A stretch of 64,000 nt of DNA from Branchiostoma floridae (Eukaryota > Chordata > Leptocardii > Amphioxiformes > Branchiostomatidae): positions 20,679,448-20,743,447 of the forward strand of contig NC_049989.1 in the NCBI RefSeq assembly GCF_000003815.2, read 5' to 3'. The notes beneath the pieces are model-generated. The model saw nothing but the letters and a program-made list of their open reading frames with translations, had not been told where the DNA came from and ran no database searches. This document shows, piece by piece, positions 4,790 through 47,834 of the stretch (position 1 is its first letter; every line of letters starts with the position of its first letter). Both the position numbers and the translations under genes were made by a program.

Positions 4790-7700
4790 ATGTCTCAGCA
4801 GCAGGGGAGGGCACGCGGCCGGGCACGAGGCAGGGGGAGGGGGGCAACCAACGAGCCTGCGCCTCGCAGACCAGGCACTCAGGCACCTCAGCAAGGACCA
4901 CCCGGGGTACAGGTGGCTCAACCAATGACAGGGCAGGGTGGTGTTAGGCCACCAATGGCAGCTCAAGGTGGACCGCCAATGGGAGCGCAGTATGCAGTAG
5001 GTCAACTAATGGCAGCTCAGGGTGGACCACCAATGGGAGCGCAGTATGTGGTAGGCCCGCCAATTGGAGCACAGGTTGGGCCACCAATCGGTGCTCAGGC
5101 TGGACCCCCAATGGGAGCACAGTACAGTGTAGGCCAACCAATGGCAGCGCAAGGTGGACCACCAATGGGAGTGCAGTATGCTGTAGTTCCACCAATAGGA
5201 GCAGAGGGTGGAGCTGGACAACCAATGGCTGCCCCTTCTACTGGGAGAGCACGTCAAAGGGGAGGGGCAACTGCCAGAGCACCTGGAGGTAAGTGATTTG
5301 TTACAATGTTAAAGTGAAACTCTAGTGACCTGGTATTATACCTTCCAAGTCTCTTTCCAAAAGCTTAGTTTTGCATGAGAGGACAAATTAGGGTTTGGAT
5401 ACCAGACTAAAAGTCTTGTGTTAGCATTTGTTGAATAGTACATAGACTCATCTTCATGTCTACCTTGTCCCCCCAACGACCTGGAGGTCAAGGGACTAGG
5501 TAGGTAGGTAGGTAGGTACATAGACTCATACATGATGTACATCCCCAGTGCTGGTATATTTATCTGCAGGACTAGTACAAGTAGTAGGGTTACAGATTAG
5601 CATTCAATTGGTATGGGGGATAAATTTTGCCATGTCTGATTAGTGGTTGTTGTCGCCCACCCGACATATATACTGGCTGTAGGGCTGTAGTTAAGCTATG
5701 GTTGCATTGTACTACAATACTTTCTGACAAGTGCATTGAATACAGTATGCATTGTACTCTCCAAGCAGAGGTTAGGCTCTGGCAGTTTTTTTACGTTTAT
5801 TTTAGTCATTTTTATTGCAGCAAGGTACAGTACAAGATAGAAAGCCCTTGTTTCGGAAAAAGACAAGGGAAATTTCTTTAGTACAATGAACCTATAAATT
5901 AATGTATTGCACCAATTACATCCTTGATAAGTCTTCTCTGTCGCAACCAGTGGCAGAGCACATGTATTTCTCCAGTAAGCTAAACTATTTTGAGATAACT
6001 TTCACTTTCTTTCTCTGACACTTTTTTGTTGTCCCTTTTCAGCACCGCCAACCTCTGAACTGGAAGCCCTTACCCTGGGGGAGAAGCCTGGGGGTGGGGG
6101 TGCAAGGAGGCGGCGGGGTGGGGTAGTCGTGGAGGAACCCCATACCAGACCTGGGAACTTGCTGAACAAGAAAGGTTGGTCTTTCATTTATTTATTTGCA
6201 AAATGTGGCACAGTTCAGTAAAGGCATTGTGCGGAATGTACATATACTGCTGTAAATGCATTTAAGTTTGCGGGGATTTAATTTCGTGGTAGCGGGAAAA
6301 TGGACTTTTCGCGGTGGTTTTAATTTCGCGGCAGCACCATGCACTGTTGTCTCTTACTGTTATGGAAAAATGTTCGCGGTTGTTTTAAATTCGCGAAGTG
6401 GTCGCCGCGAAAACCGCGAACATTAATCCACCGCGAACATTTCTGCATTTACAGTAGTAAATGCCCTTTACTAGACCAACTACATTAAAGGCCATGTTGA
6501 GTTGATTACATGGATGACATCCTCTCGGAACCCCAAAACTGATGCCGGTATGCGATCAAAAAAAAAAGTCTGATTGAAAAGAAAAGTTGCCTTCAGGCCA
6601 CACCGATTTAATTTCTTGGTTCACGGATTCGCTCGCTCCTATTTTTTGGGGAAAAAAAATAAAAATAAAAATTACCACTCATCAAATTTTCACCATTAAT
6701 GAAACCATTCACCAACTTTCTGGTGTAGCAAATTGACCTTTATATTATAAGCTCCTTAAAGTGTGGGTACAGGTGCTGTTACTGTACAAAAATAGTGTTT
6801 TTGTACTTTTTTCAAGCTGAAAACTTTTTTCTTTATGTTTTGGATTAGCCGTTACCTTTACCCCCACCATTCTACAATTTTTATTTTTATTTTTATTTCG
6901 CCCTTTCGCTCCATATTTTTTATGAAAAAATCCGTGAACCAAGAAATTAAATTGGTGTGGCCTCAGTGTGAAATCTAAGTGGTCAAGCAGGTTGAACAAA
7001 TGTCTGAACACACAGAATGGTATATACCGAACAGTAGAGTCTTATTTCACATCTTCTTTGGCTTTGAAATATTATACTGGGTACAACAATTTTAGTATAC
7101 ATTTTCCGATATTAATTTTTGTAAACTGTTGAAAGTTGATGCACGCGGATGTCATCCATATGAATTATCATCAAGTCAACATGAATGTCCTAATTGGAAC
7201 AAAGAACTTAACTGTGAGGCCCCTCCCAGTTGAGCTACAGATAATCCCTACATGTTTATATTACCTACGTACCTAATACTCTTCGACCCTTGGTTGAAGC
7301 ATAAGGCATAAGACAAACTTTTTCCAGTCCCAGTGTGCAAAATACCCACTTGCACACTTGCACATTGCAACCACTTTTTGCTTGGTGCAACTTACTTCTA
7401 AACTCAGGTTGCTCAGGGTGCAACTTAGATTTTGAGCCTCAGAACTCGATTTTGTTGTCAATTTACTTGGAAAAAATAAATGGACAGAGGCAGCTTAATT
7501 TCATATCAGACAAACATGTATGTACTAGTATTGTACCTTTTTTTTCAGAAATTAGTGAACTGTAGGTGGTGCAACTTGAAATTCAGTTGTGCAACCTAGT
7601 TTTTGCCCCAGGTTGCACACTGTGCAACCTGACTCAGAAAAGTATTTTGTACACTGAGTCCTTCCTATCTTGGGCCATCCATCTGATCTCGTGCCAGGTC

Positions 7701-47834: not shown

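Follow-up and report, generated by a model that had tools for sequence, protein, structure and literature searches.

The arrays of copied exon borders which we describe here in the PIWI genes of Branchiostoma floridae are newly found, dense mirages, a phenomenon already known in this species. Mirages have so far been reported gene by gene. With 13 arrays in three tandem PIWI paralogs, this compact locus allows arrays to be dated through paralogy, set against controls and tested for junction preference. The DNA by which its introns grow is for the most part copied from the borders of the adjoining exons. We consider it probable that the arrays are tandem duplications of single splice sites which later grew, shrank and homogenized, the correct mRNA still being possible and the decoys remaining hidden.

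Three tandem PIWI genes and their arrays

The window, i.e., the whole stretch of 64,000 nucleotides that was analyzed (C11:20679448-20743447), contains two PIWI genes arranged head to tail, and a third gene lies downstream of it (Table 1). Our models of the three genes cover exons 3-17 in the exon numbering of the original prediction; the first open reading frame exon of gene 1 (ATG at 4790), whose frame contains a GAQ-rich tract made of 132-bp repeats, was left unjoined. The conceptual protein of exons 3-17 has 756 residues in gene 1 (Pfam scores of 343.7 bits for Piwi and 120.3 bits for PAZ) and 757 residues in gene 2 (349.1 bits for Piwi), and both genes exceed the Pfam cut-offs for Piwi (PF02171), PAZ (PF02170) and Piwi_N (PF23278). 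They encode PIWI-subfamily Argonaute proteins. The Pfam scan covered genes 1 and 2; gene 3 and the other Argonaute genes discussed below were named by tblastn with these two genes, and the labels PIWI and AGO outside the window are therefore based on similarity and not on a tree.

Two published Bb/Bj-Piwil1 primers match gene 2 with zero mismatches, at 34114-34138 (exon 6) and at 46525-46546 (exon 15). According to the available text of PMC3735472 (2013) these primers were derived from the B. floridae Piwil1 gene, a Piwil1 cDNA, KC516709, is on record, and three PIWI gene models lie inside 80 kb and possibly represent one Piwil1 gene. The three PIWI genes in about 80 kb found here fit this part of the description, and together with the exact primer matches they identify the host of the arrays as a cephalochordate, B. 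floridae. Since genes 1-3 each have a separate set of exons 3-17, we read the locus as three tandem genes where the 2013 paper suggested one. For annotation, copied exon pieces may mislead gene prediction. Two observations on the gene models are added here: exon 6 of gene 1 has an apparent GC donor at 10660 (AAG, then GCAAGC), the counterpart in gene 2 being GT, and two assembly N runs lie in or near gene 2 (35164-36035 and 48154-48288).

Table 1. Positions of the PIWI genes and of the arrays in the window (window coordinates unless C11 is given).
Feature	Position	Strand	Remarks
PIWI gene 1, exons 3-17	7995..19367	+	paralog comparison, splice sites, Pfam
PIWI gene 2, exons 3-17	28359..47834	+	paralog comparison, splice sites, Pfam, primer matches
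PIWI gene 3, exons 3-17, downstream of window	C11:20758888-20770768		tblastn with genes 1 and 2
Repeat in gene 1 exon 1	4943..5212	+	132-bp repeat confined to the open frame; touches no junction
Gene 1 exon 4 donor array	8727..9035	+	authentic donor after 8775; unit ~133 bp; 2 decoys
Gene 1 exon 5 acceptor array	9221..9725	+	3 decoys; authentic exon start 9637; unit ~133 bp
Gene 1 exon 13 donor array	16512..16918	+	authentic donor after 16542; decoys 16704, 16878; unit ~161 bp
Gene 2 exon 3 donor array	28446..29685	+	authentic donor after 28573; 7 decoys; unit 130-175 bp
Gene 2 exon 4 donor array	32033..32488	+	authentic donor after 32077; 8 decoys; 53-bp unit, 44-bp variant
Gene 2 exon 5 donor array	33151..33610	+	1 decoy; last ~97 exon bases and donor recopied 350 bp downstream
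Gene 2 exon 10 acceptor array	39890..40924	+	6 upstream copies; authentic exon start 40816; unit 147-162 bp
Gene 2 exon 13 donor array	44475..45430	+	two intron types; authentic donor after 44565; 4 GT decoys
Gene 2 exon 14 acceptor array	45724..45953	+	1 decoy, AG at 45731; authentic exon start 45898

It had been claimed from the letters alone that at least nine exon borders of genes 1 and 2 were copied in tandem, and an exon-blind self-comparison, followed by exon models and a copy-by-copy reading, recovered 9/9 of those named. Their units, as defined by same-strand local matches, consist of an exon end, the splice site and the adjacent intron. Five shuffled windows (2-base block shuffling) gave 0 comparable self-matches. 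In the arrays that were read the donor copies begin in the real exon and continue downstream, and the acceptor copies precede the real exon, in which they end. Reading the copies also bore out that they range from near-identical to decayed and that the donors of exons 4 and 13 are duplicated in gene 1 as well as in gene 2. Intron repeats of short period detected by TRF (up to 27 bp) occur in both genes; they represent another class and were excluded from the counts.

The splice dinucleotides of the copies are mostly present. For the exon 4 donor of gene 1 there is a GT at 8910 and a second decoy near 9025 with GA, and each of the three upstream copies of exon 5 has an AG. By eye we further noted in gene 2 a weaker relic near 29837 belonging to the exon 3 array, one exon 10 copy lacking the AG that is kept in 5/6 copies, and an extra exon 13 copy lacking GT.

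Counting gene 3, there are 13 arrays, nine of them in the window, at eight donors and five acceptors, so that both border types are affected. The unit lengths are 53-175 bp, plus one of 350 bp. The mean identity around the splice site is 86-97% in 11 arrays; for the other two, both of gene 3, values of 75 and 80% were measured with positions off by 1 and 3 bases. In intron 4 of gene 1, introns 9 and 13 of gene 2 and intron 8 of gene 3 the arrays make up ~77-89% of the intron length (hand-set intervals). The visible effect of the arrays is therefore intron growth.

Probable shared descent and published mirages

Gene 3 contributes four junction arrays, at the exon 3 donor, at the exon 9 acceptor (nine decoys, ~94 bp) and at both borders of exon 13. 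Several of its copies share breakpoints with gene 2. At exon 3 the gene 3 intron and first decoy align across the unit joint of gene 2, and a degraded copy upstream of gene 3 exon 10 likewise aligns across a gene 2 unit joint. In a tree of the exon 13 donor units two decoys of gene 2 have an intron of the gene 3 type; the authentic gene 2 unit and two further decoys form a separate group (92/99), and the gene 1 units a third one (100/100). This tree contains one starred clade pair and has open forks within the gene 2/3 group. Because unit joints and intron types are common to genes 2 and 3, the arrays at the exon 3, 10 and 13 borders most likely predate the split of these genes or were exchanged between them, and we had to reject the notion that each shared junction is an independent event in genes 2 and 3. 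The 13 arrays were therefore also taken as about 11 origins by leaving out the exon 3 and exon 13 donor arrays of gene 3; the exon 10 relic of gene 3 was outside the 13-array count from the start. With gene 1 the situation appears different. Its exon 13 units group apart, and its exon 4 donor unit is 133 bp long vs 53 bp in gene 2, so the recurrence at these two donors looks independent of gene 2.

Among the published cases, the available text of PMC3087553 describes tandem-duplicated exon–intron borders in BflGb6 and BflGb9, two of 15 globin genes, with units of 150-160 bp, an identity of 81-100% in BflGb6 and 6 vs 3 copies on two haplotypes. The same text takes the name "mirages" from Adh3, reports RT-PCR suggesting regular splicing and calls the genomic mechanism unclear. 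PMC3902484, in the portion at hand, adds mirages in PGBD5 and also TnC; Adh3 and TnC are given here as cited in these two papers. The published unit lengths seen there are 10-160 bp. Tandem repeats are also mentioned for huntingtin scaffolds in the available part of PMC2206037, and they are not placed at borders. Among the matches listed in the literature on such repeats and on amphioxus Piwi we saw no PIWI mirages.

The window arrays match the published features which we tested, and we therefore assign them to the mirages. They occur in the same species and consist of exon end, splice site and intron in tandem, donors and acceptors are both affected, the authentic copy is at the outer edge, and AG or GT is present in many, not all, decoys. 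Unit size and identity are mostly in the same range, a few units exceeding the published lengths. The PIWI genes differ in having more arrays per gene (nine in two genes, 13 in three), in that arrays are common to paralogs and in that all 13 arrays found in the modelled parts sit on borders. Furthermore, copy-number variation and splicing have been reported for the globins, whereas the PIWI arrays are known from the sequence of one assembly.

Two related systems can be compared. In intron gain by tandem duplication, as described in the accessible text on a potato RdRp gene (PMC4974935) and on Drosophila (PMC2891723), a duplication carrying splice signals likewise alters the gene structure and leaves the protein unchanged; there, however, a new intron is created, whereas here an existing intron grows with unused copies.

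Tandem duplication of whole exons, including mutually exclusive exons, is a known class. Here too exon sequence is recopied beside itself, but whole exons are concerned and not a single border. We observed what looks like such a case elsewhere in the genome. On the minus strand of C13:3143301-3160164 about eleven tandem profile hits cover roughly the same ~115-residue part of ABC_membrane. In the four copies that were read (L045, C13:3157200-3160300) the shared part is open and its residues differ, and stops are found only in the upstream part of two copies. This array looks like whole alternative exons of an ABC transporter.

Placement at junctions and in other genes

As a null model we placed the observed unit lengths randomly in exons 3-17 of genes 1-3 and retained placements which are intronic or cover a single border. 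The logic of this filter is that a duplication within an exon or over a whole exon is usually harmful, and an intronic or single-border one need not be. All arrays (13/13) cover one border, the expectation being 8-36% per array (P = 7.2e-9). Exon-anchored copies diverge on a single side; doubling their weight gives P = 3.3e-6. With the 11 assumed origins we obtained P = 7.5e-8 (doubled weight 1.5e-5), and with introns additionally trimmed to their array-free length P = 5.8e-7 (doubled weight 7.7e-5). Uniform duplication with removal of harmful copies does not predict the border placement in the three C11 genes and is rejected for them. Together with the nine recovered borders this upholds the proposal that tandem duplication has struck here repeatedly and in connection with the junctions.

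The same placement test was applied to two AGO paralogs. On C149 7/8 arrays touch an exon block (P = 7.6e-4, doubled weight 0.014), and on C17 2/5 do so, which is not significant. The C149 gene is not an allele of the C17 gene, as had been considered with a view to reading copy-number variation: the two align only in short exon-like blocks of 74-92% identity.

Arrays lacking a coding signal occur as well. By a coding score 17/54 array rows fall under the 95% level of 150-base intron windows, arrays being longer than 150 bases, which inflates their scores; in random stretches (50 kb, 8,462 N) 3/5 arrays fall under this level. One 74-bp-period array lacking a clear coding signal starts 37 bases behind the last matched block of the PIWI gene on C8 (L021:1251-1986). 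Periods of 125-190 bp were found in 17/23 exon arrays vs 4/16 non-coding arrays (P = 0.004), a comparison that is confounded with exon size and for which the 23 exon-array periods were entered by hand. One of the 17 low-scoring rows, C149a:12903, coincides with a conserved exon block and was not counted among the non-coding arrays.

The original prediction raised the question whether PIWI genes are enriched in these structures. An exon or exon block counted as affected when a local self-match, at a distance of up to 1 kb, overlapped it by 25 bases or more. Thereby 3/15 exons of gene 1, 6/15 of gene 2 and 3/15 of gene 3 are affected. By the same self-match criterion two other PIWI genes have no affected block, 0/9 on C8 and 0/16 on C3. 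Five CCT genes show 1/31 affected exons, and two sets of kinesin control exons 0/8 and 0/11. In the AGO genes 6/11 blocks are affected on C149 and 2/11 on the paralogous C17, the blocks being those conserved between the two paralogs and a C149 array having been noticed before the gene was chosen. The C149 gene (C149:75000-84300; L013, L014) has the top share among the genes tested, and one of its blocks carries an array of about five 152-bp copies. A clean mirage outside the Argonaute family is present in a kinesin gene (C2:31967300-31968500, L042), with three acceptor-side copies ~152 bp apart; this gene was chosen for its repeated profile hits and was excluded from the counts. Also left out were an array-bearing AGO fragment of one block at C149:121808, the weak gene 3 exon 10 copy and seven decoy-to-decoy matches within the exon 3 and exon 13 arrays of gene 2.

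The C11 cluster thus exceeds both the two other PIWI genes (12/45 vs 0/25, P = 0.003) and the CCT and kinesin controls (1/50, P = 5e-4), whose exons are profile hits and incomplete, the eight kinesin exons being those with the best profile scores. The Argonaute superfamily minus the ascertained genes 1 and 2 still exceeds these controls (11/62 vs 1/50, P = 0.011). A PIWI-wide property is rejected, no block of the C8 and C3 genes being affected, and the special position of PIWI genes is not borne out either: two PIWI genes are unaffected, yet AGO, CCT, kinesin, globins, Adh3, TnC and PGBD5 are affected. We also inspected profile tables by eye for repeated hits and found one clear array among 134 kinesin matches and one among 37 Piwi matches, none among 142 myosin and 60 TCP1 matches, and one unassessed pair among 47 DEAD matches. 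We rejected this count as a genome-wide rate, as it overlooks most arrays known from sequence.

Decoy splice sites and the origin of the arrays

Of the aligned decoys in genes 1-3, 42/45 keep AG or GT, compared with 37.4 expected from the flanking identity; the corresponding P = 0.039 presumes independent copies, which these are not, and thus overstates the excess. In a position matrix built from genes 1 and 2, and therefore partly circular, 21/24 decoy donors and 18/18 decoy acceptors reach or exceed the score of the weakest authentic site. The median score is 9.6 for decoy donors vs 8.9 for authentic ones and 5.4 for decoy acceptors vs 10.6. A premature stop is predicted for the use of 31/32 decoys of genes 1 and 2. 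The exception is the gene 2 decoy acceptor at 40667, the one nearest to exon 10, which would add 49 in-frame residues and no stop.

With these figures we can weigh the explanations for the arrays. It had been suggested that the copies are decoys under selection, being kept since they are used now and then, whereby PIWI mRNA is directed to nonsense-mediated decay and PIWI output is adjusted. The predicted stops, the retained dinucleotides and the arrays at three borders that seem to predate the gene 2/gene 3 split are in line with this. However, the excess of retained dinucleotides is small and comes from non-independent copies, and retention of almost any intron yields a premature stop. Moreover two other PIWI genes have no affected exon among 25, kinesin, CCT, AGO and globin genes have similar structures, and the RT-PCR in the available text of PMC3087553 suggested regular splicing of globins. 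The suggestion is thus not supported, and we consider it quite improbable; the copies are most likely a tolerated by-product, with selection on them presumably absent. We give hardly any credence to the arrays being an assembly artefact, with copies stemming from collapsed or merged haplotypes. The amphioxus genome is highly heterozygous, and the N runs mentioned above lie in or near gene 2. A globin mirage was aberrant in the draft assembly as far as reported in the text of PMC3087553 available. On the other hand, up to ten graded copies occur per array and unit joints are common to paralogs, and mirages in other genes of the species are backed by traces, haplotypes and re-sequencing in the accessible parts of PMC3087553 and PMC3902484.

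A further explanation is a mutational preference. Exon-border chromatin, a step in base composition, or a structure arising in transcription or replication could start tandem duplications of ~130-190 bp at junctions, an idea which we hold to be possible, if on the doubtful side. All 13 arrays in the modelled parts of the three genes sit on one border, the AGO gene on C149 behaves similarly, and the periods of exon arrays are mostly 125-190 bp. Against this stand the non-significant result for C17, the arrays devoid of a coding signal elsewhere, one of them just behind a block of the C8 PIWI gene, the confounding of period with exon size and the fact that genes 1 and 2 were ascertained through their arrays. 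Few junction arrays are found in the controls, and therefore any rule for all borders would be weak. The preference for junctions is thus pronounced in these clusters, and as a rule for the whole genome it is so far unproved.

We return to mirages arising by single-splice-site duplication. A small tandem duplication would span one splice site, and the array would then expand, contract and homogenize via unequal exchange or slippage. After a single-border duplication one exon should survive intact, splice site included, at the array's outer edge, so that the correct mRNA would still be possible and the extra copies would turn into intron. Exon definition by the spliceosome is established knowledge, and it probably conceals the decoys: behind a decoy acceptor a donor at exon distance would be missing, and the real donor would lie closer to the acceptor than a decoy donor. 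Arrays formed in this way would lengthen introns and could survive a gene duplication. As the uniform null with its harm filter does not account for the C11 genes, this plain mirage explanation is incomplete. The excess at junctions over deep intron points to an added border preference, either of the duplication step or of survival. Tentatively, and with more doubt than confidence, we put forward that amphioxus exon borders are hot spots of tandem duplication, where splice junctions attract the duplication machinery itself, over and above any effect of selection against harm, perhaps via exon-bound nucleosomes or nucleosome-sized replication fragments (the units being ~130-190 bp), and where introns are thereby enlarged one border after another in particular gene clusters.

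Other features were noted in the window behind gene 2. On the minus strand one open frame at 50350-51714 has LRR and TIR domains, as in a Toll-like receptor type gene, and 52916-56452 is occupied by a LINE-type open frame (1178 residues) coding for endonuclease and reverse transcriptase domains. A GC-rich minisatellite with nested periods of 42, 62, 84 and 104 bp is located at 61794-62068.
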